A stretch of DNA of 64,000 nucleotides from positions 124,001-188,000 of the forward strand of contig CAJXVS010000008.1 of assembly GCA_913061265.1 (NCBI GenBank), read 5' to 3'. The stretch comes from an uncultured Halobacteriovorax sp. GTDB taxonomy: Bacteria; Bdellovibrionota; Bacteriovoracia; Bacteriovoracales; Bacteriovoracaceae. Shown here piece by piece: positions 1,209 through 30,222 of the stretch (position 1 is its first letter; each line of letters begins with the position of its first letter). A program made the position numbers and the translations under genes. The notes under the pieces were generated by a model. It ran no database searches. It saw only the letters and a list, made by a program, of their open reading frames with translations, and was not told the origin of the DNA.

Positions 1209-2498
1209 ATGCTTAAGTCAGCCATTCTAGCCACGACCATCTTAGTTTCTACAAGTTCAGCCTTAGCAAAGACTGAGATGAGTAAACTCGTAGAGTATGT
1301 CCAAGATAAATACGCTACACCCAATGAGTCACCAATCTTGATCTTTGATAAAGACGAAATTAACTGGCGCTTTGCCAAGGCTAAAGTCTTTGGAAAAGAG
1401 AATGAGTCAGCGAGAATCCCTGTGATTCAAGCTTATGTAAAAGAATTTACCGGAGTGGACCTTACTACTAATCATGCAAGTAACTTTGATACTTATCTAA
1501 GTATTCTCAAAAACTCAGCCGTGGCCCTTCCCTTAACAGAGGGATATTCTAGCAATAAAGCCTATAAAATCTGCGGAGTCTTTCACGCCGACGCTAATTC
1601 TAATCAAAGGCTTGAAAGTGAAAGACTGCTTGGCCTCAATATAAAGGGCGCCTACGGTGACCTTGAGTACCATCACTTAAAAGAAGGCTTAGAGTTTGAA
1701 GAGATGAAGAAGTTCTCTCTTTATCACGAACTAGGTCATTGCCTTGATAAGCGCTTTCTTCCTGAAGCTCAATCTGCTTATAACGATGCTCATAGTATTC
1801 ATGAAAGTGAATCCTTTGCAGAGACCACCGGACTTCTCTTACTTGCCAGAGAAGGAATAGATAATGTGGCACAGAGAAGAATTACCATGAGAAATATCTA
1901 CTCTCGTAAGATTGGCCAATACCTAATAGACACTCCAGGCCTTAGCTATGGTAATCCTAATGCAAAGTACGGTGGCCTCATCTATTATATGCAGCCCGTC
2001 CTAAGCGCCGGCGCGGCTTTAATTGAAGAAGACTTTGCATTTGTTCAAGATAGTAGCATGGAGGAACTTCTCAAAGCCTCTGAGAGAATCGTCGATGAGA
2101 GCTCACTTAAATCTAGGTCTTTCAACGCTATCTACTCCTACCTTACTGATGGAGCAGAAGTTGCTTTAGAGAGATACAGAGAATATGAAGAATCTATGCC
2201 AGAATACTTTACAGGAATCATCGCCACCATAATGAGCTATATCAATAAAACAGATCAAACCGTAGAAGATAGCTTTGATCAAGACCGTGAAGAGATTCCT
2301 TTTAAGTTATCACTTAAGGATTTTACTGTTGAAGAATTTTGCCCAAGCTTTGAATCATATGACCGAGAGGCCTTTAACGAATTGCTAGATGAATTTCGTG
2401 AAGATCTAAAGAATGAAAATGGAACGGCGGCTGAGCAGAGACAAAGACAGCAGGACCTAATGGATTTACCTGAGAGCTTATCTAGAATCTGTGATTAA
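1209..2498 (+). CDS. exported zincin-like protein with HELGH motif
   Basis: 429 residues beginning with a signal peptide (about 1-20, ending SALA). The body contains HELGH at H173-E174-H177, the HExxH zinc-site pattern of gluzincin/metzincin peptidases, followed about 30 residues on by ESFAETTG, which supplies candidate Glu ligands. That arrangement (HExxH then a helix with E) suggests a secreted or periplasmic zinc metalloprotease. The rest of the chain matches no family I recognise and is rich in charged helical segments. The gene stands alone: it diverges from exbB and converges on the csp gene. No membrane anchor or lipobox is seen. Whether it is active on proteins cannot be told; the zinc-binding prediction is moderate, the family name is not assigned. 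Confidence 0.65.
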   Translation: MLKSAILATTILVSTSSALAKTEMSKLVEYVQDKYATPNESPILIFDKDEINWRFAKAKVFGKENESARIPVIQAYVKEFTGVDLTTNHASNFDTYLSILKNSAVALPLTEGYSSNKAYKICGVFHADANSNQRLESERLLGLNIKGAYGDLEYHHLKEGLEFEEMKKFSLYHELGHCLDKRFLPEAQSAYNDAHSIHESESFAETTGLLLLAREGIDNVAQRRITMRNIYSRKIGQYLIDTPGLSYGNPNAKYGGLIYYMQPVLSAGAALIEEDFAFVQDSSMEELLKASERIVDESSLKSRSFNAIYSYLTDGAEVALERYREYEESMPEYFTGIIATIMSYINKTDQTVEDSFDQDREEIPFKLSLKDFTVEEFCPSFESYDREAFNELLDEFREDLKNENGTAAEQRQRQQDLMDLPESLSRICD

Positions 2499-2508
2499 AG
2501 ACCAAAAA

Positions 2509-2530
2509 AAAGGGAGCTGACGCTCCCTTT
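2509..2530 (-). terminator. rho-independent terminator of the cold-shock gene
   Basis: AAAGGGAGC (2509-2517) pairs perfectly with GCTCCCTTT (2522-2530) around a 4-nt loop. Read on the minus strand the hairpin is followed by a run of seven or more T residues, the classic intrinsic terminator for the csp transcript. The plus-strand gene ending at 2498 may share it, but lacks the downstream T-run on its own strand. Confidence 0.8.
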
Positions 2531-2556
2531 AAAATCTATATATATTTATTCAAATA

Positions 2557-2754
2557 TTATATTTTTTTAACTTGAACAGCACATGGTCCTTTTTGACCTT
2601 CGCCTACTTCATACTCAACTTTGTCATTTTCGTTAAGGTAAGAAATACCGTCAAGACCTGTTGCGTGTACGAATAGATCAGCTCCACCATCTTCTGGAGT
2701 GATAAAACCAAAACCTTTTGCTTCATTAAAAAACTTTACTGTACCTGTACTCAT
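2557..2754 (-). CDS. cold-shock domain protein (CspA family)
   Basis: 65 residues, exactly the size of a single cold-shock domain. It carries both RNA-binding motifs: KGFGFI (RNP1) near residues 14-19 and LFVHATGL (RNP2) near 27-34. It binds single-stranded RNA/DNA and acts as an RNA chaperone in the cytoplasm. The gene is monocistronic, with its own intrinsic terminator at 2509-2530 and a leader with paired segments upstream (2775-2820). Whether this copy is cold-induced or constitutive cannot be read from the sequence. Confidence 0.95.
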   Translation of the reverse strand: MSTGTVKFFNEAKGFGFITPEDGGADLFVHATGLDGISYLNENDKVEYEVGEGQKGPCAVQVKKI

Positions 2755-2774
2755 AATAATAATCCTAAAAAAAT

Positions 2775-2820
2775 AGACGGCGAAAGTGCCATCAGTGTTA
2801 TAGGCAAAGTACCCCCGTCT
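2775..2820 (-). promoter_or_regulatory. folded 5' leader of the cold-shock gene
   Basis: AGACGG (2775-2780) and CCGTCT (2815-2820) are complementary and enclose a second short GCC/GGC pairing. On the minus strand this places a stem-loop about 20-65 nt before the csp start codon. Long foldable leaders that control translation are known for csp mRNAs; here the role is inferred from position only. Confidence 0.4.
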
Positions 2821-2955
2821 GATTAAAATTGCAAATGGTTTTTATTGCCCCACGTTACCGGTCTTTAACGTACTGAATTCACGTTATTAGTTAGGTGCTT
2901 AACTCTTAAAATGGCGACAAAATACAGAGTAAATGACCAGTTCTGAATCTTGGGC

Positions 2956-2969
2956 TACACTGAAAAACG
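2956..2969 (+). promoter_or_regulatory. -10 box directly before the tonB-like start
   Basis: TACACT at 2956-2961 lies 8 nt before the ATG at 2970. A -35-like ATGACC stands 17 bp upstream. The expected transcription start falls within 1-2 nt of the ATG, and no Shine-Dalgarno is present, so the mRNA may be leaderless. Confidence 0.4.
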
Positions 2970-3521
2970 ATGTTTTTTACAAAGCCAAGAATCATATTTA
3001 ACAAGGCCTGGGTTCTCTCATTCCTTCTTCATGGGTTGATCCTTTTCTTCGTCTTTCCAAAGTCGCAAGGAATCAAAGAGATCACAGCAAAACTTGGCTT
3101 TAACCCAAGTCGATTCACCATTAGCAGCATCCTAAATACTAAGACTAAACCTAAGCTTGCGCCTTCAGTAAAACCAATAAAAAAGGCTCTTCCAAAAGAG
3201 TCAAAGACCGTAGATAAAACTCTCCCCATAGAGCCGAGTAAAGATGCCTCTCAAGTAAAGACCTTTGAGGAGTCTATCATTAAGAACACTCCTCCAAACT
3301 ACCCAAGGATTGCGAGAAAGCGTGGATGGCAAGGGGATGTAGAATTGCTTATTCATGTCTCATCTAAAGGACTAGTTAAAAATATTGATGTCCTTAGCTC
3401 AAATGCTCATCAGGTCTTAACCAAAAGCGCAGTTGAATCAGCAAAGTCCTGGGCCTTTGTCCCTTCTCAAGATCAACTTGATTACAAGGTTAGAAAGGTC
3501 ATCAAGTACCAGTTAAAGTAA
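2970..3521 (+). CDS. TonB-family energy transducer
   Basis: 183 residues: a short cytoplasmic start, one N-terminal membrane helix (about 13-31), a Lys/Pro/Ser-rich spacer (about 50-100) for crossing the periplasm, and a C-terminal TonB domain (about 103-183). The C-terminal domain carries the typical YPRIARKRGWQGDV entry and a closing W-F-P element (SWAFVPS). It should couple the ExbB/ExbD motor to outer-membrane receptors; genes for such a pair start 2 kb away on the other strand. The spacer is short compared with E. coli TonB (239 residues in total). The gene is single and ends flush against the convergent histidine kinase gene (adjacent bases). Confidence 0.85.
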   Translation: MFFTKPRIIFNKAWVLSFLLHGLILFFVFPKSQGIKEITAKLGFNPSRFTISSILNTKTKPKLAPSVKPIKKALPKESKTVDKTLPIEPSKDASQVKTFEESIIKNTPPNYPRIARKRGWQGDVELLIHVSSKGLVKNIDVLSSNAHQVLTKSAVESAKSWAFVPSQDQLDYKVRKVIKYQLK

Positions 3522-5006
3522 TTATTCAGATTCGCTTTTAGTATATTTATTAAAATGAATGATAAACTGAGTATTAGGGCAAGAGCGGTTGACCTTAATA
3601 ATAGCGTTATGCTGATTTAAAATACTGGCCGTAATTGAAAGACCAAGACCGGTCCCTTCACCTACAACTTTTGAAGTATAAAAGGGATCGAACATCTTTG
3701 ATGCCTGATCTTCAGGAATCCCCTTACCGGAATCAGTTATGCTTAGGCTTAAAAGAGACTTCTTTTCAGTTAGCTCAATCTTTACCCATCTCTCTTCTAA
3801 TTCTTTAACGGCATCGCAAGAATTATTCACAAGGTTGATAAGGACTTGCTCCATTTCAACTTCATCACATAAGACTAGGGCCTCTGATTCAATCGAGCAG
3901 GTCAATTCAACATCATGCCTCTTAGCTTTAATCTCAGTTAAGATTAAGGATTCTTTAACAATAGAAGAGAGCTTATGCGGCGTGTATTCCTGCTTATCTC
4001 CAAACCTAGAGAATTTTTTTAAGCTAGCTACAATTCTTGCAATTCTATCTGAAGACTTTCTAATAGACTCAATCTTACTTTCGACTTGCTCTGGGGTCTG
4101 TGCTCTATTTTGAAGAATTGTTATGCTTCCAGAGATAATAGCAAGGGGGTTGTTAATTTCATGAGCTATCCCAGCAGACATCTCCCCTAGAGAGGCCAAT
4201 TTAGAGGAATGAACATTCTTGATTCTTTCTTCTTCGTATCTTAACTCTGCTGTTTTTTTATCGTTAATATCTTGGATAGTTCCAGAGAGGCTAACGACCT
4301 TTCCATCTTTGTAGTTTGCTTTGCCATTTGTATAGACCCAAATAATATTCCCTTTTGCGGTTTTCGCCTGTAGCTCTAAAGAATAAGGTGTACCATTATT
4401 TATTGCTTCGTTCACAGCTTCTTCAATAACAGGTCGAGAGTCCTCAGTGTATAAGCTTAATCCATCAGTTAAGACTGGGCAGCTTAATTCTCTTTTATTT
4501 ACTTCAAAGATTCTAAAGGCTTCGTCCGACCAATGTAGCTCTCCAGTTTGAACAATTAACTCCCAGCCTCCTACTTTAGAAATCTTATTAGTCTCATTTA
4601 GCATTCTTACAGTTTTCTTTAAGTCCTTTCTAATTATTACTTCTTTAGTGACATCATTTCGAACTGAGATATAGCCTGTAATTTTATTACTTGAATCAAA
4701 GTAGGGGGAGATTATGGCCTTTACAAAATAAGGCTTTCCCGCTTTAGTTTTATTTTCAATAATTCCTTTCCAGACTTCACCTGAGGAGATGACGTCCCAC
4801 ATCTTTTGATAAAACTGTTCTGTGTGCTTCCCGGATTTTACTTTACGGTGGTTCTCCCCGATCAACTCTTCTCTTGAGTAACCACTTAATTCACAGAACT
4901 TATCATTGACTTCAATGATGACTCCCTTCACATTTGTTTTAGAGAAAATGAGTTCATTGTGAACAAGGTCGCAAATATGTTTATCTAGTAAGTCGTTATC
5001 AGACAT
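3522..5006 (-). CDS. PAS-domain sensor histidine kinase (copy 1)
   Basis: 494 residues, cytoplasmic: no membrane helices. Two PAS/PAC modules come first (about 10-125, with FCELSGYSREELIGENHR; and about 140-250), then a dimerisation/phosphoacceptor helix with HEINNP and the phosphorylated His at residue 282. The ATPase domain follows, with N-box (LVNNSCDAV), G1 (DSGKGIP) and G2 (GEGTGLGLSI) motifs. An SD (TGAGGA) precedes the ATG. It autophosphorylates and passes phosphate to an unknown response regulator; none is encoded nearby. It is a close paralogue of the gene just upstream (5094-6758), so the pair arose by tandem duplication. The signal is unknown; PAS pairs like these often bind haem, flavin or small ligands. 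Confidence 0.93.
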   Translation of the reverse strand: MSDNDLLDKHICDLVHNELIFSKTNVKGVIIEVNDKFCELSGYSREELIGENHRKVKSGKHTEQFYQKMWDVISSGEVWKGIIENKTKAGKPYFVKAIISPYFDSSNKITGYISVRNDVTKEVIIRKDLKKTVRMLNETNKISKVGGWELIVQTGELHWSDEAFRIFEVNKRELSCPVLTDGLSLYTEDSRPVIEEAVNEAINNGTPYSLELQAKTAKGNIIWVYTNGKANYKDGKVVSLSGTIQDINDKKTAELRYEEERIKNVHSSKLASLGEMSAGIAHEINNPLAIISGSITILQNRAQTPEQVESKIESIRKSSDRIARIVASLKKFSRFGDKQEYTPHKLSSIVKESLILTEIKAKRHDVELTCSIESEALVLCDEVEMEQVLINLVNNSCDAVKELEERWVKIELTEKKSLLSLSITDSGKGIPEDQASKMFDPFYTSKVVGEGTGLGLSITASILNQHNAIIKVNRSCPNTQFIIHFNKYTKSESE

Positions 5007-5093
5007 TGAATCCTCAAAATTTGTTTAGTGTTACTATAAACTAATTCCGAGTAATATCTTAATTTTTTTTTCTTTTACTTTAAGAAAAACACT

Positions 5094-6758
5094 TTAGTCG
5101 GATATACTGGCATCACTTTCAACAATCTTATTGAAGATAATAATAAACTGAGTATTAGGATGTTTGTGATTCACCCGAATTAAAGCGTTATGCTGATTTA
5201 AGATACTGGCCGTAATTGAAAGACCAAGACCAGTTCCCTCACCTATATCTTTAGTCGTAAAAAAAGGATCGAACATTCGGCTGGCCTTTTCAGGGGGTAT
5301 TCCATTTCCTGAGTCAGTTACTTTTAATGAAACATGGGACTTCTCTTCACTAAGCTCGATCTTAATCCATCTTTCATCAAGGTCTTTAATAGCGTCTGCT
5401 GCATTATTGATAAGATTGATTAAGACTTGTTCTATCTCGATGTCATTACATAAGACCATGGCCTCTGATTGGATGTCTGAAGTAAGTTCAATATTACTTC
5501 CCTTTGCCTTAATACTGGTTAGGATCATTGACTCATCAACAATAGTAGAAAGTTTATGAGGGCCATAGTCTTGAATATCACTAAAGCGTGAGAATTTTTT
5601 AAGACTTCCTACAATCTTTCCTATTCTTTCAGTAGATTTTCTAATGGTCTCTACTCTTTTTTTAGTCTGCTCTAAGGTTTGCTCTCTAGTTTGAAGAAGA
5701 GAAACTGTTCCAGCTATTATAGTAAGGGGATTATTTATTTCATGGGCTATCCCTGCAGACATTTCTCCAAGGGAGGCCAACTTTGCTGAGTGCAGGTTCT
5801 TAATCCTTTCTTCTTCGTAATTTTGTTCCGCTATTTTTCTGTTATTTATATCTTGGATAGTTCCAGACAAGCTTATGACTTTGCCATCTTTATAATTTGG
5901 CTTTCCATTTGTATAAATCCATAAAAGCTTTCCAGAGACAGTCTTGACTTGTAACTCAAGAGAATAAGGAACGCCCTCTTCAATTGCCTTATTGATGGCA
6001 TCGGTGATGACTGGTCTGGATTCTTCAGTATAAACACTTAAGCCTTCTTTTAACTCAGGTTTTTTATTTTTATCTTTTTTAAATTCAAGGATATTATAAG
6101 TCTCGTCAGTCCAAGTTAGGTATCCTGACTCAACATTTAAATCCCAACCTCCGACTTTTGCAATCTTACTTGTCTCGTTTAAGATATCTAAAGTCTTCTT
6201 GAGGTTCTTTCTCATCATGACTTCTTTAGTCACATCGCTTCTAATGGAAAGATAGCCAGAGAGTTTTTTATCAATATCATAAAAGGGAGAAATAACTGCT
6301 TTAACAAAATAGGGACTACCATCCTTTGCCTTATTCTCCACGATCCCGCGCCAGGTCTCTCCCGCAGAGATGACCTCCCACATATTGGCATAGAATTTCT
6401 CTGAATGTTTACCGGATTTAACAACCCGGTGGTTCTCTCCTATTAATTCTTTTTTTGTATAACCACTTAGCTCACAGAACTTTCCATTTACTTCCGTTAT
6501 ATTCCCTGCTTTATCTGTACGGGAGTAGATCAACTCATTATGAATAAGCTCATTGAGCTGAAGCTCTGATTGTAAAAGCTTACTTCCTTTTGTGACTGAT
6601 TCAGTGTTTTTAAAGTTCTTATAAAAAGAATCTAAGATCTTATTTAGGTTTTTATCTAATATCGTCTCATCTATTCCATCTTTGAGCTGAGAGATTGATT
6701 TTATAAATCGATCAAAGTCTGATTTCCTTATGACAATATCTTCTTCAGCTGCGCTCAC
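5094..6758 (-). CDS. PAS-domain sensor histidine kinase (copy 2)
   Basis: 554 residues with the same architecture as the downstream paralogue: two PAS/PAC modules, HisKA helix with phosphoacceptor His339 in HEINNP, and a HATPase domain with LINNAADAI, DSGNGIP and GEGTGLGLSI. The extra length is an N-terminal helical segment of about 60 residues not present in copy 1. Start is a GTG preceded by GAGAGGA on the minus strand. An 87-bp gap separates it from copy 1, so cotranscription is plausible. No receiver-domain gene lies beside it. The long shared stretches between the copies, down to identical motif wording, argue for recent duplication followed by divergence of the sensor halves. Confidence 0.93.
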   Translation of the reverse strand: MSAAEEDIVIRKSDFDRFIKSISQLKDGIDETILDKNLNKILDSFYKNFKNTESVTKGSKLLQSELQLNELIHNELIYSRTDKAGNITEVNGKFCELSGYTKKELIGENHRVVKSGKHSEKFYANMWEVISAGETWRGIVENKAKDGSPYFVKAVISPFYDIDKKLSGYLSIRSDVTKEVMMRKNLKKTLDILNETSKIAKVGGWDLNVESGYLTWTDETYNILEFKKDKNKKPELKEGLSVYTEESRPVITDAINKAIEEGVPYSLELQVKTVSGKLLWIYTNGKPNYKDGKVISLSGTIQDINNRKIAEQNYEEERIKNLHSAKLASLGEMSAGIAHEINNPLTIIAGTVSLLQTREQTLEQTKKRVETIRKSTERIGKIVGSLKKFSRFSDIQDYGPHKLSTIVDESMILTSIKAKGSNIELTSDIQSEAMVLCNDIEIEQVLINLINNAADAIKDLDERWIKIELSEEKSHVSLKVTDSGNGIPPEKASRMFDPFFTTKDIGEGTGLGLSITASILNQHNALIRVNHKHPNTQFIIIFNKIVESDASISD

Positions 6759-20236: not shown

Positions 20237-21061
20237 CTAAGAATTTATCTCAACAGGAACCGGACAGCTCGAAGGGCGCCCAATATTATTCTCTAGAAGT
20301 ATCTTATTACCTCTTGCGATTAAGTCACTTAGGAAAGCCTTTTCAAACTTCACATCAAGGACATAGGCCTTAACACTAACCCTAATAACAAAGGTATTAG
20401 AAATAGGCACTTCATCAAAGGTTATGATGACTGACTTTTCTAGGAAGACAAAACGGCTAGTGATGACCACTTCATGAAGTAAGGTCTTTATACGCTCTAA
20501 GTTTTCATAGATTGAAACATGAAAGTTTGCTTCAATCATCATATCAAGAGCGCCACTATTTCCACTTGCGACAACGTCGGTTAGGAATTTTGAGTTTGGA
20601 ATAGTGACTAAGTTATCATCTAGTGTTTGAAGTCTTACTGATCTAAGCCCAATACTTTTAATCTCGCCATACACGTCAGCGAAACTAACTCTATCACCTA
20701 CTTGAAAGGGGCGGTCAAAGAGAAGGATAAACCCTGCGATGACAGAGCCCACAAGGTCTTTTAAGGCAAAACCAATGGCCACAGCGGCTGAGCCACCAAT
20801 AGTGACAAGAACTTCCTTAGAAGGTCTAAAGACCATATAGAATGAGCCTAGAAAGCCGCAGAGATAGAGGAAGAACGAGAAGATGGTGGCCACTTGAAGG
20901 ATGACCAGTCTTTTTCCTGAGAACTTAACTTGAAGCTTTTCGCTCCAGATATTGATGATCTTAACCAGAAAAACAATACAACCAATAAGAAAGATAAATA
21001 AGACGATCTTATCGAGTTTTAAAAAGTCTAAAATATAAAGCGTCGTTGCGTTAGCTTCCAT
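20237..21061 (-). CDS. MscS-family small-conductance channel
   Basis: 274 residues. About three membrane helices are followed by the pore helix (GGSAAVAIGFALKDLVGSVIAG) and the cytoplasmic beta domain beginning FDRPFQVGDRV and continuing TLDDNLVTIPNSKF, all MscS hallmarks. It would release osmolytes on membrane tension. The start lies 11 bp inside the 3' end of the 1014-residue AAA+ membrane protein gene, so the two are translationally coupled, an unusual partner for an MscS channel. The C-terminal vestibule is complete though short. Confidence 0.92.
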   Translation of the reverse strand: MEANATTLYILDFLKLDKIVLFIFLIGCIVFLVKIINIWSEKLQVKFSGKRLVILQVATIFSFFLYLCGFLGSFYMVFRPSKEVLVTIGGSAAVAIGFALKDLVGSVIAGFILLFDRPFQVGDRVSFADVYGEIKSIGLRSVRLQTLDDNLVTIPNSKFLTDVVASGNSGALDMMIEANFHVSIYENLERIKTLLHEVVITSRFVFLEKSVIITFDEVPISNTFVIRVSVKAYVLDVKFEKAFLSDLIARGNKILLENNIGRPSSCPVPVEINS

Positions 21062-24000
21062 AAATAAAGTTCTTTAAAGTTAAGAATTTAATAAGACCGA
21101 ACTGACTAGCAATCTCGATCATATAGCGACCTCTTTGGTCTCGGTAGAGAAAGTCTTTTTCTAATCCTACTTTGATAGCGTTTCTTACTATTCCTGATGG
21201 TAAATCAGTTGTTCCTTCTATCTCTTTTCCTGTTAAATTTTCATGCTTAAGTATATGGGCCAAAACAAACATTAGGTCATCAGGCAATTTCTCAAGTCCA
21301 ACCAGTTCCACTTCTTTTGGTATATTAACATTGAGCACTTTTGTTCGTTTTTGAGAAAGAGCTGTAATCCATAGAACAATAGCGGCTCTAGGGTTACCTC
21401 TAGAAAGCTCCCAAAGTAATTTAAAGAATTTTGATTCAACAGAGGCATAACGGTCAATTTCATCTTGAGAGCGTGTTGCATTAATAAGGAGGTCAAAAGA
21501 AAGCCGATAATCCGTTTTCTTATGACGGCTCATGATAAGCTCTTTAATCTTAGTATCACTCCAGCCTTTAACCTCAAATACATTTCTAAAGAACTGGTTT
21601 CTACCAAAAGCACGATCGAGGAACAGCCAACTGTACTTATTAAAAGAGAGAACCCAATAAATATTCTCAGTACTAAAATTGATCATATTTGCTAAGGCAT
21701 CATAAGCTCCAAATCCACCAGTCTTTGAAAGAAATATATTTTGAGCCTCATCTAAATAAATAACCGTCTTCTTCGCAATTTTCTTATCTATATGATAAAG
21801 GTCAAAATTGTTATCACTAGCTTCTTCTTTTCCTAGTAAAAGTTCTTTGAGAAAGTTTTGTAAAGTGCTTTTTTCAAAAGTTTTAGCCGGAATTTTTGTT
21901 CTGATAATATTAAGATCTTCCTTACGCTGCTCTTCAATAGTATTGAGACAGAATTTTACTAAAGTCGTTTTACCGACTCCTTTATCTCCAAAAACCACTA
22001 ATGAATGTTCATCACTTTTACCATCGCACCAATCGTCTATTTCAATCTTTATATTTTTTTCTAGGTCTTCACTTACGCAAACATAATCATCTTTGCTTTC
22101 TAAGGACTGCAATTGAAAATGCGTGCAATATTCCTCAGGAATCTCTTTATCAGTACCATCGCCAACTTCAACTTTCTCAATTTGTTTTTTAAAGATATTG
22201 GCAGATATCTTTTTAGAAATTTCAAAATTCTCAGTGGCCCTAATAAAAGTATTAAGAATAGAAAAGACAATGATGATAAAGAAGTAAATGGTGGCTTTTA
22301 CTTTAGAGGGAACTATTTTGAACATTCCCTCTAATCTAGTGACGATAAAGCCTGAAAAGTTTCGCTCTATATAGGTCCAAAACTCTTTTTCCCAAGTCGC
22401 GGACATCATCACGATTCTATAGACAGCGTAGAATGCGACAGTGATATTCACAATCGAAAAGATATAAGTCCTTCCTATTGTAGCGTCGGCAACAACAAGA
22501 GAGAGGGCGTAGAATAAATAAATATTAGAAATATGATTTGCAGAGGCCTGGGCCTTTTTCTTAAACTGAGCAAAGCTCTTGATATCAATTCTTGAAACAG
22601 ATCCAAAGAAAAGGATCACAAAAGACTTTAAGATATGGCTAACAAGAATGACCTGGACCACAATTATAAGTAAACGAATGTCTGAGAAGGTCTCTTTATC
22701 TATTAAAAAGGATGTTAGAACTAACCATAAAATTTCTTCAAGATTATCTTTTACTTTGTTCCAAAGAGATAAAAAAATCTTCACCAACTTAAATGATCTA
22801 TAATTTCTTAGTACTTGGCTGACTCTTTTATCCACCCAATTTTGAGAATTAGAAAAGAGCGTTTTCAATATAAAAAAAAGAACCGCCAAAAAGCTAAGAT
22901 AAAGAGCATCATAGGCCAATATTGTGACCCCAGGTTTACCTTTAGATAGCTGCTCTCTTATATAAAGAAGTTTACTGTAAAAATAACTAATGACTCTAAA
23001 AGGAGATGAGGTTAATTCATTAGCTATGCCTTTATAGTAATCAAGACTTAAAACCTTTTTAAAGACGAAACCAGCCGGCAACTGTCTATAGAGGACTCCC
23101 CTTACATTATTGACCTGAAGAAGCAGGTCATTATGAAGCTTTAATTCTTGATTCTTTTTTAGGGTCAATTCTTTTAGAGTCTTAAGCCTAAGTTCACTTA
23201 ATTGAAGCTTAACTGTTTCGAGTTCTTCTAAGTCAGCTCGTAAGTCATCTCTTCCATAACTCTTTATACTTCCACTTGGAATACTAGGTAGGGTAAAGGT
23301 CTTATCTGTCTTAAAGAGATCATAGTTCTTAGAAGATATCTCTTTCCAGATACTCTCAACTGTTTGGTAACTCTCTATAACTTGATCTGAAGACTCTGCG
23401 TTTGAAGCGCCTGCTAGAATGGAAAGCTTTGATGAATGTTTTTCAAAGTAACTTAGCTTTTCTTCTAGGGCCCTATTGTATTCAAGCTTTTTATTGATCA
23501 ACTCAATTTTAATTTTTTTAAATTCTGATATCTTTGAAGAAATCTCTTTCTTCTTAGCATCATTGATGGTGTTGACTTTTATCTCTGCTTCTAGGACTTC
23601 AAAGGCCAGGCTCTTTTTCTCTTTTTCAGAGGCGAGGTTTTCTTTTTCGATATCTTCTTTTATTCCGGGAACTTCTTTTTCCCCAATTATTTTCTCGTAT
23701 ATGGCGTTATTAAGAGACTTATTTTTTATAAGAAGTTCAATTCTTAGTTTGGTCAACTCTATTGAGAGATCAACGAGCTTCTGCTGTTTTTTTACACTTT
23801 TTGTCTCTAGGAGACAGCCCGCTAATGTTTCATGTTCCGGCAGAATCCCTCGTTTATTAATTAATCTTAATTTTTCTTTTTGAACGAGTTCGTCTGTCTT
23901 TTGTAAAACAAAAGCTTCACCAAAAACCAAGGCAGGTCCAGACTCTCTAGAGCCTCCCTCTAAGAAAGATTTGATATTCGCGGCCTGAGCCGAGATTAAA

Positions 24001-24095
24001 GAGAAAACTCGATCAGAATGGCAATCCAATGCAAAAACCGGCGATGTATTAAAGAAAAGAAGGAGCACTAAAGTACTTTTGACACAATTTATCAT
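21051..24095 (-). CDS. coiled-coil/membrane/AAA+ ATPase fusion protein
   Basis: 1014 residues in three blocks. A signal peptide (about 1-22) leads to a charged helical region (about 60-345), likely periplasmic coiled coil, resembling in layout the N-terminal halves of MscK/MscM. About six hydrophobic segments follow between 390 and 625. The C-terminal third is a cytosolic P-loop ATPase: Walker A FGDKGVGKTT near 700-708, Walker B VIYLDEAQNIF near 780, then a winged-helix-like end (about 950-1005). The ATPase resembles ORC/ExeA-type AAA+ modules. It lacks any MscS pore domain; that is supplied by the overlapping next gene. I know of no described protein of this make-up. ATP-gated or ATP-regulated channel control is an inference. 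Confidence 0.8.
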   Translation of the reverse strand: MINCVKSTLVLLLFFNTSPVFALDCHSDRVFSLISAQAANIKSFLEGGSRESGPALVFGEAFVLQKTDELVQKEKLRLINKRGILPEHETLAGCLLETKSVKKQQKLVDLSIELTKLRIELLIKNKSLNNAIYEKIIGEKEVPGIKEDIEKENLASEKEKKSLAFEVLEAEIKVNTINDAKKKEISSKISEFKKIKIELINKKLEYNRALEEKLSYFEKHSSKLSILAGASNAESSDQVIESYQTVESIWKEISSKNYDLFKTDKTFTLPSIPSGSIKSYGRDDLRADLEELETVKLQLSELRLKTLKELTLKKNQELKLHNDLLLQVNNVRGVLYRQLPAGFVFKKVLSLDYYKGIANELTSSPFRVISYFYSKLLYIREQLSKGKPGVTILAYDALYLSFLAVLFFILKTLFSNSQNWVDKRVSQVLRNYRSFKLVKIFLSLWNKVKDNLEEILWLVLTSFLIDKETFSDIRLLIIVVQVILVSHILKSFVILFFGSVSRIDIKSFAQFKKKAQASANHISNIYLFYALSLVVADATIGRTYIFSIVNITVAFYAVYRIVMMSATWEKEFWTYIERNFSGFIVTRLEGMFKIVPSKVKATIYFFIIIVFSILNTFIRATENFEISKKISANIFKKQIEKVEVGDGTDKEIPEEYCTHFQLQSLESKDDYVCVSEDLEKNIKIEIDDWCDGKSDEHSLVVFGDKGVGKTTLVKFCLNTIEEQRKEDLNIIRTKIPAKTFEKSTLQNFLKELLLGKEEASDNNFDLYHIDKKIAKKTVIYLDEAQNIFLSKTGGFGAYDALANMINFSTENIYWVLSFNKYSWLFLDRAFGRNQFFRNVFEVKGWSDTKIKELIMSRHKKTDYRLSFDLLINATRSQDEIDRYASVESKFFKLLWELSRGNPRAAIVLWITALSQKRTKVLNVNIPKEVELVGLEKLPDDLMFVLAHILKHENLTGKEIEGTTDLPSGIVRNAIKVGLEKDFLYRDQRGRYMIEIASQFGLIKFLTLKNFIYGS

Positions 24096-24105
24096 TCTCT
24101 AAATT

Positions 24106-25098
24106 CTAGTCCACCGAATCCATAAGTCTATCTTTTTTATAGTTCCCTTCACGGGTTGTCGCTATATGTACTAGGGCTTCACCTTGAGTCACCAAAGGCA
24201 ATTTATTAATGCCTAGTATATAACCACTATTGTGAACACGGATCAATTCCACGTCTGTTCCTAAAGGATCAGTGACCTCACCAATAACTTGATTCTTTTT
24301 CACCATCTGACCATTCTTCACTTTTAACTTAAAGGTTCCACCCTTAGGTGACCTAATCCAATAACTTCCCAAGGCCATGATGGGCTTTGGTCTATTTGAG
24401 ACTAGCTTTAACTTAGGAAGAACACCAATCTCTCTTAGAGCAGAGATACAACCTTTAACCCCCGCAGTGATAACATCATCTTCAAACCTTAGGGCCTCAC
24501 CACCTTCGAAGACAAGAGTGATAACGCCTTTTCTTCTCGCCATTTCTCGAAGAGAGCCATCCCTTGTTTGAGAATCAACAATGATAGGGGCCCTAAAACT
24601 CTTAGCGAACTTCTTCGTCTCTTTACAGCTAAGATCGGCTCTAATTTGAGGATGGTTAGAACGGTGAATGGCACCTGTATGAAAATCTATTCCGTGAGTA
24701 CATTTTGAAATGATCTCATTCATAAAGATCTTTGCCATCCTTGAGGCTAAAGATCCATTTTCTGATCCAGGAAAAGAGCGGTTTAAGTCTCTTCTATCCG
24801 GAAGGTAGCGAGACTTATTGTTAAAGCCAAATACATTAACAATAGGAACGGCGATGATAGTTCCCTTTATCTTCTTTCTCTCTATGATCTTTAAGACTTC
24901 TCTAATGATCTCGACGCCATTGATCTCATCGCCGTGAATAGCCGCTGATAAAAAAACAATTGGGCCTTCTTTTTCCCCGCGGATGATCTTTACGGGCATA
25001 GTTAAGTCAGTAGAGTCATAAAGCTTGGCCACCTCGGCTTCAAGGTTTATGGTTTCTCCAGGTAGAATTGTTCTTCCTAATATCTTAAGCTTCTTCAC
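24106..25098 (-). CDS. M14-type succinylglutamate desuccinylase/aspartoacylase-like enzyme
   Basis: 330 residues. Zinc ligands appear in SAAIHGDEING (His55, Glu58) and in the later GIDFHTGAIHR; a catalytic Glu is offered by VFEGGEALRFE. Arg-rich DRRDLNRSFPG is typical of the AstE/ASPA branch of M14 carboxypeptidases, which cut N-acyl or C-terminal acidic amino acids. It lies 2 bp after a RimK-type ligase gene. A reasonable job is removing or editing the glutamate-type tails that RimK adds, or recycling their products; this is inference from context. Confidence 0.88.
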   Translation of the reverse strand: MKKLKILGRTILPGETINLEAEVAKLYDSTDLTMPVKIIRGEKEGPIVFLSAAIHGDEINGVEIIREVLKIIERKKIKGTIIAVPIVNVFGFNNKSRYLPDRRDLNRSFPGSENGSLASRMAKIFMNEIISKCTHGIDFHTGAIHRSNHPQIRADLSCKETKKFAKSFRAPIIVDSQTRDGSLREMARRKGVITLVFEGGEALRFEDDVITAGVKGCISALREIGVLPKLKLVSNRPKPIMALGSYWIRSPKGGTFKLKVKNGQMVKKNQVIGEVTDPLGTDVELIRVHNSGYILGINKLPLVTQGEALVHIATTREGNYKKDRLMDSVD

Positions 25099-25100
25099 TA

Positions 25101-26009
25101 TTACCCCTGACCTCTGGTCTTATTAGACTTCTTACTAGCGATCGCTTTTTCTATATGAGTCACGATCATTCCGGCAACATCTTTTCCTGTTGCACTCTCT
25201 ATTCCCTCAAGTCCTGGGGAGGAATTTACCTCTAGAACAAGGGGACCATTATGAGATCTTAATATATCAACCCCAGCGACATTAAGGCCCATGGCCTTAG
25301 CGGCTTTTACAGCAGAGGCTCTTTCATCTTTAGAGATCTTAACAATCTCAGCGGTTCCACCACGGTGGAGATTTGAGCGAAAGTCTCCTTCCGCTCCAGT
25401 TCTTTTCATGGCGGCTACGACTTTATCGGCCACAACAAAGCAGCGGATATCTGAGCCACCTGATTCCTTGATAAACTCTTGAACAAGATAGTTTGATTTG
25501 GTTCCAGAGATTAACTCCATAACGCTTTCTGCGGCTTTCTTACTCTCTGCTAGAACAACGCCTTTTCCCTGAGTTCCCTCTAGGAGTTTTATCACACAAG
25601 GAGCTCCTCCAACCTGATCAAGGAGCTTATCCGTCATCTGAGTAGAGTTTCCAAAGCCAGTAACAGGAAGACCTATGCCCACCTTGGCCATGATCTGAAG
25701 GCTTCTTAATTTATCTCTAGAGCGGGCAATGGCGACTGATTCGTTAACCGCATAAACGCCGCCCATTTCAAACTGTCTAAGGACAGCTGTTCCATAGAAG
25801 GTTACGCTTGCACCGATCCTAGGGATGACAGCATCAAAATAATCTAAGACTTTTTCTTTATAGAGAACGGTAGGCTTTTTGGTCGTGATATTCATATAGC
25901 ATTGAAGTGGATTGATAACTTCTACTTCATGCCCTCTTGCCTTACAAGCATTGACTAAACTCTGAGTTGAGTAAAGCTTTGGGCCTCTTGAGAGAATGGC
26001 TATCTTCAC
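25101..26009 (-). CDS. rimK: RimK-type ATP-grasp ligase
   Basis: 302 residues, near the E. coli RimK length (300). The N-terminal domain starts [15 protein letters not shown]; the ATP-grasp core shows [41 protein letters not shown] and magnesium-binding [14 protein letters not shown]. RimK adds glutamate residues to the C-terminus of ribosomal protein S6. Start overlaps the 3' end of the RimB-like gene by 4 bp, and the M14-type gene follows 2 bp later, so all three are one operon. A different peptide substrate cannot be excluded. Confidence 0.92.
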
Positions 26010-26449
26010 CTTTTAACCTTTTTCAAAAGATATGACTTACTTGGGTTAACTAAAAAGGTATCTCTCATGGCGGCCCTTCCGAGGAGCATGCGAAAACCCA
26101 TCATATCTCTATTAACTAGAGTGATCTCAATTTCTTTATCCATACCACCAAATTTAACCATGGCATCTATGACTGGCCTCTTTTGGCTAATACCATTAGA
26201 ACTTTTAATGCTTTTGAAGCACTTAACCTCAACAATATTCTTAAAACGGGGCCGACTAGATTCTTGATTTGGATGAATATAGAATTCAGCTAAATGCTTC
26301 CTTCCTTTCTTATGGTAAGTAAGATCTGTTACATGAAGAGCAGAGGTTCTTGCCCCGGTATCAACCTTAACTTTAATTTCTTTGATCTTTAATTCTGGGA
26401 TAGAGATAAACTCTCTCCAACCAATATGAACTAATTCTTTCTTCTTCAT
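26006..26449 (-). CDS. RimB/RimK-associated retropepsin-like protease
   Basis: 147 residues with [14 protein letters not shown] near the start (Asp30), the retropepsin-like motif of the 'putative ATP-dependent zinc protease' family often found beside RimK, known as RimB in pseudomonads. A second family block, [17 protein letters not shown], is near the C-terminus. It is the first gene of the operon, with GAGGCAG upstream of the ATG. In Pseudomonas RimB acts on polyglutamylated S6; the same is assumed here. Confidence 0.85.
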
Positions 26450-26503
26450 TTCTGCCTCGAGTAAGCGCCTATTCTAACCTTTTAAAAAGGCTTTCCTATA
26501 GCA

Positions 26504-28249
26504 TTATATTTGTATATCTAGTGAGCCGGTCCCTTTGGCTTCCAAGCTCTTTGGGGCCCCACAAAAAACAATTTGTTTTTCAACACCGGGCGACAATGAC
26601 TTCACCAGCCTTAAGACTGAATCCATTCTTTTTATGTTTAGTTTAAGGCCCTCAATTAGACTAACTTTAGATTCCTTCTCTTCAAGATAAGTTTGAGGAC
26701 AAAAGCTTAAAGAAACTTCAGGTTGGCCTTTCAAAAAAGAGACGACTCTCTCTAGAGTTTTTAGCTCTCTTCCTTTAATTAAAGCTGAGTGAGGAGCAAA
26801 CTTTAGATCATTAAAACGTGGTTTAACCGCAAACTTATAACCCGCCTTTATTAGAGTTAAAGCATTTAAGGGGTTGATAGGAATGCTGCTTAATAATAAG
26901 GGGGCAACTCTCTTAGCCGCTTCAACAGCGATCAAGGAGTAAAATTTATCTGCGATAATGCTACCGATCCCTTTAGAGAGGTAACCAATAATATCAAATT
27001 CAGGGTCAGACTTCTTGCCTTCAATCTTAGAATCAAGCTTAACCTTGCCATTCTCATCCTTAACGATACCTACTGCTTTAGTTATAGACATAAAAGAGCC
27101 AATTGAGCTGGCTCCATCTTTTTCTTTGAAGTTCAGCTGTGAGAGGCTTACATTCAATTTACCGTCAATATTTTCTTCAGAGTCTATCTTGCTATTATAG
27201 GTGGCGAAGAGTTTCCCTGAGTCGATATTATTATTTGAATCAATGATCAGAAAATCTGAATAATTCTTTAAATCGAGGTTATCAATGGCCAAGTTTAAAA
27301 ATCCTGGACCTGAATCCATGGCCACTGTGGCGTCTCTATTGAGGTTAATCTTAAGGTTATGACCTGCAGTCTTCTTATAATTTAGGGAATTAAGAGAAAG
27401 AACTTCTATCACTTGGGGCAGACCATCTTTTGTTTTTTGCTTAATCCCTTTAAATAGAAAATCCTTAAGACTAATGTCAAAGACTTTAGAAGTTCCTTTT
27501 AGGCTCCCTTCTTTTAGATCCCACTCAGAAATTAAATATTCTGCAGACTCTTTTGTCTTATATGAGAAATTCTTTACTAATGAGTTCAGACTAAGCTCTA
27601 TCTCCTCTCCGTGAAGCTTCAAGGCGATTTCACTTGTTAACTTGCCTTTGATTCCAGATATCGGTTTAAAAATATTCTCTGAAGCAATAATTTTAAGGTC
27701 TATCTCTTTTAAGTTGATCTTTAAATTAGCCTTTAACAACTTATTCTTCTCAACATTACCGTTGATAAAGATCTTTGAGTCTTTAAAAGAAAACCTTCCT
27801 TCTCTAGCTATAAATGAAAAAGATCCTCCACCAGCTTCAATATTTTCAACCTCAAGTTTATCAATTTGAAAGGTATCATTCTTAAGGACTACTGATTTAT
27901 CAAAACTAAAATCCTTGATGAAAATAGAGTTAACTGGCAAAGTCGTTTTACTCTCTGTTTTCTTGGTCTCTTTTTTTTCATTCTCTTTTTTCGGTAAAAC
28001 AGGCATTTTCCAAAGATTACCTCCTTCAATACTTAAACCATTAAGACCAAGAGTGACCTTCTTTAAATCTAAGATCCGTCCTTTTTTATCTGACAAGGAA
28101 ATTCCAAAAACCTCTATCCTAGGAGGAAGAAGCCCAAGTCCATAATTATCAATAAGAGTCTTAATCTTAAATTCAACCTGTGTAGTCTTGTTAACCTGAT
28201 CTTTGACTAGGCCCTTCGTTAAAAAGAAACTAACAATAATCAGGGCCAC
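26504..28249 (-). CDS. AsmA-like (DUF748-type) envelope protein
   Basis: 581 residues. A short N-terminal hydrophobic segment is followed by long stretches of alternating beta strands rich in Lys, Ser and Asn. The C-terminal third (KPRFNDLKFAPHSALIKGRE, then an OmpA-like FLKGQPEVSLSFCPQTY) matches AsmA/DUF748 proteins. These span the periplasm as hydrophobic grooves and move phospholipids toward the outer membrane. At 581 residues it is a shorter member. It lies 38 bp downstream of an mscS-type gene on the same strand and is the last gene of that operon. Family call is moderate. Confidence 0.7.
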   Translation of the reverse strand: MALIIVSFFLTKGLVKDQVNKTTQVEFKIKTLIDNYGLGLLPPRIEVFGISLSDKKGRILDLKKVTLGLNGLSIEGGNLWKMPVLPKKENEKKETKKTESKTTLPVNSIFIKDFSFDKSVVLKNDTFQIDKLEVENIEAGGGSFSFIAREGRFSFKDSKIFINGNVEKNKLLKANLKINLKEIDLKIIASENIFKPISGIKGKLTSEIALKLHGEEIELSLNSLVKNFSYKTKESAEYLISEWDLKEGSLKGTSKVFDISLKDFLFKGIKQKTKDGLPQVIEVLSLNSLNYKKTAGHNLKINLNRDATVAMDSGPGFLNLAIDNLDLKNYSDFLIIDSNNNIDSGKLFATYNSKIDSEENIDGKLNVSLSQLNFKEKDGASSIGSFMSITKAVGIVKDENGKVKLDSKIEGKKSDPEFDIIGYLSKGIGSIIADKFYSLIAVEAAKRVAPLLLSSIPINPLNALTLIKAGYKFAVKPRFNDLKFAPHSALIKGRELKTLERVVSFLKGQPEVSLSFCPQTYLEEKESKVSLIEGLKLNIKRMDSVLRLVKSLSPGVEKQIVFCGAPKSLEAKGTGSLDIQI

Positions 28250-28287
28250 AAGGGCTATAAATATAAGAGAGGTTTTCTTTAGAAAGC

Positions 28288-29154
28288 TTATTTTTCTGTC
28301 CCTTCCAAATCTGGCTTCTCATGAAGAACTAACCAATCGATATAAAGACGATTAAAATTTTGCTCGATATTGGCAATTTCAGTGTTTAAAACAGGCAATT
28401 TAACTAAAACTGATATCTTATCATCTTCAACAATTACTTTAGTTCGAGGCTCTATTGAAGGAATGATAAAGCCTTCTTTTTGACAAAACCTACTAATGCT
28501 TTTCTTGGCCTCTTCAAGGTAGGATTCGGATTCCTCTATGGCCTTGTTTAGGAGTACTTTTTCAAGGTCTTCTATATGGGCCGCTGCTTTTACTCTATAG
28601 TGAAATGATTTTATAGAATAGCCTTTAAAATAAGATTCATTCTTAACCGCTTGAGAGAGCATTAAAGAATTAGGAATAGTAACCACATCCCCAGTTGTTT
28701 GCTGAGAGTTACTTTCAGGTCCAATCTCAAGAACTTTAGTCGTCAAAAGGTTTCTCTCTAAAACATATCCTCTAAGCTTTTGAAGTTCTATTCGATGACC
28801 AACACTAAAAGTTTTAGAGCTTCTTACTAAGACTCCACCTGTCACGCACATAATCAGTTCTTTAAAGGCCAGAACCAGAGCGGCAGCAATGGCAAAGATA
28901 GAGACAAAGAAGACCTGAAGCTGAGCAAACCAAAGCAAAAAGAGAACTAAAAAGAAAAAGTAACGAAGGTATTGTTCTACCTTCTTTTTATAAAAAACTT
29001 TTTCTGTTTTATTAATCTCGCGCTTGTTTATATTTGAATAGAAAAGAAACCGCGAGATATAGTAAAAGCCAAAGAGACCTAAGGAATAAATCGCAGTCTT
29101 TGAATAAGGATAACGAACCATGAGTTCATTTAATTTGCTTAAGAATTCTTCCAT
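28288..29154 (-). CDS. MscS-family channel-like protein
   Basis: 288 residues. Two to three membrane helices (about 18-37, 68-90, 90-115) precede a channel domain with ALVLAFKELIMCVTGGVLV, FSVGHRIELQKLRG and GDVVTIPNSLM, the MscS pore-plus-beta layout. Conserved Gly/Ala of the pore helix are partly replaced and an insertion (EIGPESNSQQTTG) interrupts the beta domain, so conductance may differ. Its ATG follows the stop of a 49-codon UspA-like gene after 2 nt, and the AsmA-like gene comes 38 bp later. Confidence 0.82.
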   Translation of the reverse strand: MEEFLSKLNELMVRYPYSKTAIYSLGLFGFYYISRFLFYSNINKREINKTEKVFYKKKVEQYLRYFFFLVLFLLWFAQLQVFFVSIFAIAAALVLAFKELIMCVTGGVLVRSSKTFSVGHRIELQKLRGYVLERNLLTTKVLEIGPESNSQQTTGDVVTIPNSLMLSQAVKNESYFKGYSIKSFHYRVKAAAHIEDLEKVLLNKAIEESESYLEEAKKSISRFCQKEGFIIPSIEPRTKVIVEDDKISVLVKLPVLNTEIANIEQNFNRLYIDWLVLHEKPDLEGTEK

Positions 29155-29156
29155 AA

Positions 29157-29306
29157 TTACCTGATTAATTTTGCTACAAAAACAGAAGAGTCCGTTAGCT
29201 TAAGGATAGCTTCAGTCATACTTCCAAGATAGAGGCGTTCAAGGTCTTTATTACCACGGGTGGCCAGAACTGTTAGGTCTGTTTCTATGTGGACTTTGCT
29301 TTTCAT
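29157..29306 (-). CDS. 49-residue UspA C-terminal-half protein
   Basis: An ATG at 29306 with AGGA 7 nt upstream opens a 49-codon frame. It reads DLTVLATRGNKDLERLYLGS and ends VFVAKLIR, which matches the last third of universal stress proteins, including the nucleotide-loop pattern G-x(9)-GS (Gly18, Gly28-Ser29). The second Gly of the usual GxxG is Asp here. The first two thirds of the UspA fold are absent and the upstream gene (CorA-like) leaves no room for it. It may be a remnant, or a small stand-alone regulator of the channel genes, given its good ribosome site and 2-nt spacing to mscS. Confidence 0.7.
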   Translation of the reverse strand: MKSKVHIETDLTVLATRGNKDLERLYLGSMTEAILKLTDSSVFVAKLIR

Positions 29307-29313
29307 ATAATTC

Positions 29314-30222
29314 CTAGTTATCTAAACCCAGCCTATTCTCAAGCTTTTCCATTTGACTTGAGATCCCTTTATAAATAGTGGTCCTTCCAAGAAGAAATCG
29401 TAAAATAAATCGATCAATTAGCTTGATTAAAGTTAAGCCAGTCACACTTAGGACTAAGATACTTAACAAAATGAAGAGAACATATTGAGTGGCATTGTTG
29501 TACTGATCAAGAAAGAGTCCTTTAGTATTCATGCCAAAGAAACCTACGATAAGGTTTAAAGGAAGGAAGACACCAGAAACGAGGGTTAACATATAAATAT
29601 TTTTGTTAAGCTTATCGTTCTTGATTGAACTATAGTAATGATGTAGGCCATCTAAACGTATGATTGCGCCTTTAACATTAGAGATAGAGTATTCAGTGTT
29701 TTTAATCAACTCTGCAATATCAAGACTAACAAAGAACTCTTCTTTTCTATTCCATTTATCTATTCCCGTTAGGGCTGTAATATGCCTATCATAGAATCTT
29801 TCAATCCTAGAGAGTTCCTTTTTTAAATCGAACCAATTATCCATAAAGACTGAAGAATGTTTTCTATCGTAGAGATCGTCTTCTAGAGAATCCACCTGAC
29901 GTAAAAAGTGATTAACAATTGTTTCATTCTCTAAGAAATAATTCTCGAGTTCTTCAATCAGAGGGTCGCCATTATCTCCAAAGGGAGTAAAGCAATCGGA
30001 GTCCCAATCAAATTGATAAACTTGTTTATTTAAAAGTAGGTACTTTAAGTTTCCATATTCAAGTTTATCATCGATGACATTTAGGTATCTAAACCAAAAT
30101 GAGAACCCCCCTTTAAAAGGAGAGAAGTATGACTTTTGCTCTACTTGGGATAAAGAGTCCGTAAGAGACACTGCAACGCTTTCATCAACATGATCTTGAA
30201 TATCTTTTAATGAGATTTCCAT
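29314..30222 (-). CDS. CorA-family divalent-cation transporter
   Basis: 302 residues. A large N-terminal cytoplasmic domain (about 1-235) is followed by two membrane helices joined by the signature FFGMNT (about 240-245), which forms the outer pore mouth in CorA/ZntB proteins. The loop after GMN is short and has acidic residues missing (KGLFLDQYNN). A C-terminal basic tail follows the second helix. Magnesium, cobalt or zinc could be the ion; the sequence alone does not say. It starts the channel operon ahead of the mini-Usp, mscS and asmA-like genes. Confidence 0.85.
   Translation of the reverse strand: MEISLKDIQDHVDESVAVSLTDSLSQVEQKSYFSPFKGGFSFWFRYLNVIDDKLEYGNLKYLLLNKQVYQFDWDSDCFTPFGDNGDPLIEELENYFLENETIVNHFLRQVDSLEDDLYDRKHSSVFMDNWFDLKKELSRIERFYDRHITALTGIDKWNRKEEFFVSLDIAELIKNTEYSISNVKGAIIRLDGLHHYYSSIKNDKLNKNIYMLTLVSGVFLPLNLIVGFFGMNTKGLFLDQYNNATQYVLFILLSILVLSVTGLTLIKLIDRFILRFLLGRTTIYKGISSQMEKLENRLGLDN

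Follow-up and report, generated by a model that had tools for sequence, protein, structure and literature searches.

A modular AAA+ protein genetically paired with an MscS-type channel: a predicted trans-acting regulator in four bacterial phyla

Described channels and ATPases closest to the locus

MscS channels are usually seen as self-sufficient tension valves, or as pores with fused sensor domains. In the E. coli proteins MscK (KefA) and MscM (YjeP), a periplasmic helical domain and membrane helices are linked to the MscS pore in the same chain, while bCNG channels consist of MscS fused to a cyclic-nucleotide-binding domain. We analyzed a window of 64,000 nucleotides of DNA from an uncultured Halobacteriovorax sp., in which a 274-residue protein of the same superfamily as the small channels MscS and YnaI is encoded next to a 1014-residue AAA+ protein. 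The 274-residue protein differs from these small channels in falling into a clade of its own and in being coupled to the gene of the AAA+ protein.

A logic of sensor plus channel is plausible both for MscK/MscM and for this pair, but the E. coli chains contain the pore and no AAA+ domain, whereas the 1014-residue protein contains no MscS pore. The initial annotation had proposed that an MscK/MscM chain was split here, with an ATPase taking over the position of the pore. This was not borne out: hhalign of the 1014-residue protein against E. coli MscK gave a probability of 1.4%, i.e., no detectable homology, Pfam found no MscK/MscM region, and in other genomes the same AAA core occurs as a soluble protein alone, or attached to a transporter (CPA2 antiporter or amino-acid permease). 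The bCNG channels resemble the pair in placing a nucleotide-related input on an MscS pore; they differ in that their cNMP domain is fused, whereas the AAA+ protein is separate, and Pfam detected no cNMP-binding domain in either the 1014- or the 274-residue protein. Kef-type CPA2 antiporters share their PF00999 half with the antiporter-type AAA proteins, two of which (L127, L128) differ from Kef in showing no RCK/TrkA domain in Pfam and in having the AAA core and an adjacent mscS instead.

Among ATPases, the closest structural matches of the AAA core in Foldseek were ORC/Cdc6 initiators, TnsC, archaeal AAA+ ATPases and NLR resistosomes, all with modest TM-scores of about 0.4–0.5, although the ORC/Cdc6 match reached E = 6e-11. 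The likeness to ORC1/Cdc6, TnsC and the archaeal STAND-like ATPases 2fna and 2qen includes the winged helix; identity is, however, 9–18%, and the 1014-residue protein is membrane-bound, with no DNA-related context seen. For the P-loop part, the nearest sequence families are the ExeA/GspA and XrtA-associated AAA_22 ATPases (TIGR03015), although the TIGR03015 score of 19.4 bits lies far below the cut-off of 324.5, and two weak AAA-core matches of this ExeA/XrtA kind (L148, L180) are without mscS. The initial annotation knew of no described system with this arrangement, and our search of the open-access literature (PMC) likewise found no description of an AAA+/STAND protein paired with MscS. We rate the AAA+/MscS arrangement as new in kind, and we infer its function below.

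The AAA+ protein and its partner channel

The larger gene (21051..24095; all features given here lie on the minus strand) is an open reading frame with homologues in four phyla. Its AlphaFold2 model, built on 53 homologues, has a pLDDT of 88 and a pTM of 0.66 over the full chain. Hydropathy indicates a signal peptide at residues 1–22 (24030..24095), at an N-terminus that is of low confidence in the model. It is followed by a helical, coiled-coil and probably periplasmic domain (residues 25–392, 22920..24023), modeled with long helices at residues 131–176, 180–232 and 283–337 that lead into the helices of the membrane region. Cys25 and Cys94 co-occur in 32 of the 34 homologues possessing this domain, a pattern consistent with a predicted periplasmic disulfide. 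Together with the signal peptide, this conserved pair argues that the N-terminal domain of the window's type of protein is a periplasmic sensor; the alignment shows the domain to be missing from several homologues (L026, L029, L030). Beyond the signal peptide, hydropathy averaged over the 53 homologues reveals six hydrophobic segments (residues 393–617, 22245..22919). One of them is probably not a full membrane crossing, since a periplasmic N-terminal domain and a cytosolic ATPase require an odd number. Residues 627–641 (22173..22217) form a conserved juxtamembrane motif around KKISANIFKKQIE, in which K628 and E640 are nearly invariant in two homologue alignments.

The alpha/beta AAA+ core follows at residues 676–912 (21360..22070), and modeled separately it reached a pLDDT of 90.5 and a pTM of 0.88. 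The alignment shows Walker A (GDKGVGKT, residues 703–710, 21966..21989) and Walker B (VIYLDE, residues 778–783, 21747..21764) to be intact, so that this core can probably bind ATP, as judged from its motifs. The chain ends in a winged-helix-like domain (residues 939–1007, 21075..21281), recognized by DSSP of the model and by MarR_2 matches in homologues. The only above-threshold Pfam match of the protein is AAA_22 (residues 695–809, 35.8 bits, cut-off 27), with no MS_channel region; Pfam and NCBIfam offer no named family beyond AAA_22, and a PDB search with the single sequence returned one chance-level match (E = 0.14). With Walker A and B, the core fold and the C-terminal winged helix all present, the 1014-residue protein is an AAA+ protein of the ORC/Cdc6 initiator/STAND-like group without a named family. 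Hydropathy, Pfam and AlphaFold2 thus confirm the domain order first read from the sequence: signal peptide, long helical N-domain, about six hydrophobic helices, AAA+ core and winged helix.

The 274-residue partner (20237..21061) is a true member of the MscS superfamily. Its Pfam match to PF00924 (MS_channel_2nd) scores 74.9 bits against a cut-off of 20.2 and covers the beta-domain (residues 102–164, 20570..20758), and a profile of partner MscS sequences aligns over its full length (profile positions 13–269) with the solved MscS 3udc (E = 1.6e-22). Partner MscS proteins at other loci have three hydrophobic segments. The source genome (3.97 Mb in 12 contigs) holds 6 MscS genes, and the partner profile separates them clearly: the true partner scores 433 bits, and the other five 26–87 bits. 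The reported 11-bp gene overlap was also recovered (21051..21061), with the mscS ATG lying within Tyr-Gly codons of the AAA protein tail. Overlaps are found in 74 of 127 pairs, most commonly of −11 and −8 bp. The conserved [FIL]Y tail at the C-terminus is not put forward as an established docking motif, because its Tyr codon provides the mscS ATG in many pairs, although similar tails are also seen at loci without gene overlap (L063, L066).

Conservation and co-divergence of the pair

All homologue searches used the 1014-residue protein or its AAA core, never MscS. Close relatives of the whole protein are found in Halobacteriovorax, while searches with the core yielded 137 distinct relatives, spread over Bdellovibrionota, Myxococcota and Pseudomonadota, with rare cases in Spirochaetota. 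An mscS gene lies directly downstream, on the same strand and within 1.5 kb, for 131 of these 137 core proteins, whose loci are not all independent because many come from related species. Given that the 3.97-Mb source genome has 6 MscS genes, this pairing is far above chance, and the first suggestion of a genetic bond between the AAA protein and MscS is upheld. Homologues without an MscS neighbour had been named as the case to look for, and the outcome was favourable: the six non-adjacent cases have mscS nearby or divergent, or end with the contig. In L191 mscS lies at 1,502 bp, in L184 and L201 it lies 2.9 and 4.4 kb downstream, respectively, in L181 an overlapping divergent MscS-like ORF sits beside the AAA gene, in L179 the AAA gene reaches the contig end, and one further core protein is cut by a contig end. 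Four further spirochaete loci, outside this count, also have the pair.

Genome surveys gave the same picture. The AAA protein is present in 29 of 97 relatives, with mscS directly downstream at all 30 loci fetched, and among 84,980 species genomes scanned there were 60 loci, 59 of them with mscS downstream and the last stopping at a contig border. Sampled by phylum, the core profile matched 17 of 398 Pseudomonadota genomes (one through an ExeA-like match without mscS), 70 of 189 in Myxococcota and 5 of 198 in Spirochaetota. Named examples are WP_007014233.1 with WP_039857743.1 in Novosphingobium pentaromativorans US6-1, and WP_269717132.1 with two MscS in Caulobacter sp. NIBR2454. Apart from mscS, the neighbours of the pair are not conserved. 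Few relatives keep the RimK/AstE/RimB neighbourhood of the source window, and we rejected it as a functional unit. Two apparent AAA-MscS fusions in single ORFs (L160, L166) were not real, the two parts lying in separate frames of GC-rich DNA, and no natural fusion was found.

The relationship is reciprocal. At E≤1e-60, the partner-MscS profile identified the same 29 of 97 relatives as the AAA protein, with 30 copies of each, and the AAA protein is usually single-copy in these genomes. Among the 398 Pseudomonadota genomes, the best 16 partner-MscS matches fall in the 16 AAA-core genomes. Seven weaker MscS matches (147–174 bits) come from genomes without a core match at the threshold used, and all seven regions encode a protein of 307–405 residues, without hydrophobic segments, beside the MscS position. 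Five of these proteins match the core profile (E = 9e-12 to 2e-8), and those of L210 and L211 are homologous by BLASTP to the five; the pair at L216, where MscS was not recovered as an ORF of its own in the scan, is less certain. A tree of 139 MscS sequences groups the partners of the non-transporter-type AAA proteins in a single clade (support 0.956), made up of 109 sequences and the non-adjacent partner of L201; ten ordinary MscS proteins, E. coli MscK among them, fall outside it. The partners of the antiporter and permease types are grouped in another clade (support 0.90), which includes the non-adjacent MscS of L184. The distance matrices of AAA core and MscS correlate with r = 0.90, against a maximum of 0.09 in 500 permutations, a correlation that is partly due to shared species history and common ancestry.

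While AAA core and MscS are constant, the membrane module is variable: some proteins have none, some have transmembrane helices alone or a coiled coil with such helices, and in others a transporter takes its place (CPA2 antiporter or amino-acid permease). Soluble forms have about 415 residues (L197, L198), and forms with membrane helices and AAA core about 570–670 (L026, L029, L030, L196 and the spirochaete L206–L209); the coiled-coil forms, the type of the 1014-residue protein, span 750–1250. Proteins joining a CPA2 antiporter (PF00999) and a helical region to the core reach about 1400–2100 residues (L127, L128 and most of L182–L195; that of the antiporter-type locus L126 is cut at its start). 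An amino-acid permease (PF00324) with AAA core, of about 1700 residues, is identified by Pfam in L186, and L187 is similar in appearance only.

The nucleotide motifs vary as well. Walker A and B are kept by most coiled-coil types, but only about 39 of 136 homologues have the catalytic Glu as the second acidic residue of Walker B. Entire subfamilies carry another residue in place of the Walker A Lys (GERGIGTT-like in L136–L144, APFGAGLS-like in L146/L147), this Lys is lost across the Pseudomonadota groups of ~780 and ~415 residues, and in the most diverged soluble group (L210–L212, L214) the P-loop is not recognizable. Nucleotide input is thus not general across the family. Because the P-loop has been lost in several lineages that keep MscS, hydrolysis cannot be the universal function; nucleotide control may operate in the 1014-residue protein, where the motifs are intact. 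The initial proposal of an ATP-driven or nucleotide-sensing controller consequently fails for the family as a whole, and its nucleotide-sensing part may still apply to the protein from which it was drawn.

A predicted regulator and the alternatives

The pairing, reciprocity, co-divergence and modularity of AAA core and MscS lead us to regard it as likely that the two genes specify one complex or a tightly linked pair, in which an MscS-type channel is served by a dedicated trans-acting AAA+ regulator. In this model the channel would be a heptamer and the regulator a member of the ORC/Cdc6/STAND-like clade. The input module would signal its state to the AAA core in the cytosol. In the 1014-residue protein this module would be the periplasmic helical domain with its membrane helices; at other loci it would be an antiporter or a permease, or be lacking. 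The core would in turn touch the MscS body and bias the channel toward the open or the closed state, with ATP or nucleotide state as a likely second input in the 1014-residue protein. The output would be a controlled release of solutes or ions, most plausibly in turgor or ion homeostasis. Physical contact, gating control and its direction, and an osmotic role are thus predictions from the genomic pattern. The simplest common denominator would be a regulatory scaffold contacting MscS, to which ATP may have been added as an input in some lineages.

A conserved gene pair could also mean assembly or quality control, not gating. AAA+ proteins are often remodelers, and one that folds, inserts or remodels the MscS heptamer without controlling its gating would also fit the dedicated one-to-one pairing and the overlapping genes. 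To our knowledge, however, ordinary MscS channels require no dedicated assembly factor, variants lacking a P-loop persist beside their MscS, and the antiporter and permease fusions and the large periplasmic domain resemble sensory input; we regard such a chaperone as unlikely. We give little credence to a defence or programmed-death module, in which a STAND-like AAA sensor opens the MscS pore on phage infection. The Foldseek matches to NLR resistosomes and archaeal STAND-like ATPases would suit it, but PADLOC was negative for both proteins, similarity to an Avs-type P-loop is weak and confined to one homologue (E = 0.0025), and the few recurrent neighbours do not resemble defence genes. The usual single copy, the reciprocal occurrence and co-divergence with the channel, and the several members without a P-loop also stand against it. 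An ATP-driven channel or pump, in which an AAA ring uses hydrolysis to force the pore open or to power export, is similarly improbable: the intact Walker motifs of the 1014-residue protein and most coiled-coil types would permit it, and the heptamers of TnsC, whose fold is similar, show that AAA+ proteins can share the seven-fold symmetry of MscS, but the scarcity of the catalytic Glu and the loss of the Walker A Lys or the whole P-loop in the groups described above argue against it. That the genes are mere operon neighbours without joint function is very hard to believe, for although the pair terminates an operon-like RimB-RimK-AstE run in the source window, the two genes stay together across four phyla as everything else around them changes, and the reciprocal presence/absence profiles contradict such a view.

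Under the model of a dedicated regulator, the gating of the partner MscS should depend on the AAA protein, with control by ATP only in the lineages that keep the P-loop. We consider it reasonably probable that these proteins represent an undescribed, widespread class of trans-acting AAA+ or pseudo-AAA regulators dedicated to MscS, connecting interchangeable inputs to a co-evolved pore. This would suggest a possible function for an AAA+ family whose members, such as those of Novosphingobium and Caulobacter, are publicly labeled merely ‘AAA family ATPase’ or ‘ATP-binding protein’. If so, a separate AAA+ partner would add a new level to the regulation of channels and provide a modular way for mechanosensitive-type channels to respond to signals or to the state of a transporter, and the antiporter and permease fusions would tie active ion or osmolyte transport to an emergency valve.

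Membrane modules joined to the AAA core

The AAA core, the AAA+ domain of the large partner protein, also occurs fused to transporters. In an arrangement that recurs in Myxococcota, a single protein combines a Kef-like CPA2 antiporter, a long helical stretch and this core, and an mscS gene comes next (1229-5446 and 5421-6164 in locus L127; 3132-7382 and 2390-3220 in L128; also among L182-L195). The protein at L186 (3026-8146) instead joins an amino-acid permease to the core (PF00324, 1.9e-44), with mscS downstream; L187 (3327-8429) appears to share this layout, mscS included; the Pfam scan covered L186.

In the spirochaete loci (L206-L209 and L217), the AAA gene is preceded by a conserved small two-TM protein of 159-166 residues, which makes it look as though a portion of the membrane module had a gene of its own. 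In L217 (1137-1634) this small protein gives weak zinc-ribbon-like matches. A Na+/Ca2+ exchanger gene is found near the pair in L083 (6618-7610, PF01699), as well as in L093 and L095, with homologues at the Hahella loci.

Soluble homologues and tandem mscS genes

Homologues of about 370-405 residues, without hydrophobic segments, adjoin MscS of the partner type in L210 (2631-3827), L211 (2570-3679), L212 (2549-3706) and L213-L216. In the four whose full sequence was inspected the P-loop was not recognisable, and these four are, from their sequence, apparent pseudo-ATPases. Tandem MscS genes follow the partner protein in L210 (three, 3839-6700) and on a Caulobacter plasmid (two; L203, 7061-8904).

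Upstream genes and the overlap within the pair

Gene calls and domain matches outline an operon-like run upstream of the pair in the window (24106-30222, minus strand), comprising AstE-like, RimK, RimB-like protease, DUF748/AsmA-like, second MscS and CorA genes. The second MscS (28288-29154) is divergent; a gap of 10 bp separates the AstE-like gene from the AAA gene, and the RimB-RimK-AstE portion was found again near the pair in only a few relatives.

At the other end of the AAA gene, window positions 21051-21061 encode both its end and the start of mscS. In many pairs the mscS ATG is supplied by a conserved C-terminal Tyr codon of the AAA protein, and this overlap is dual coding across distant species.
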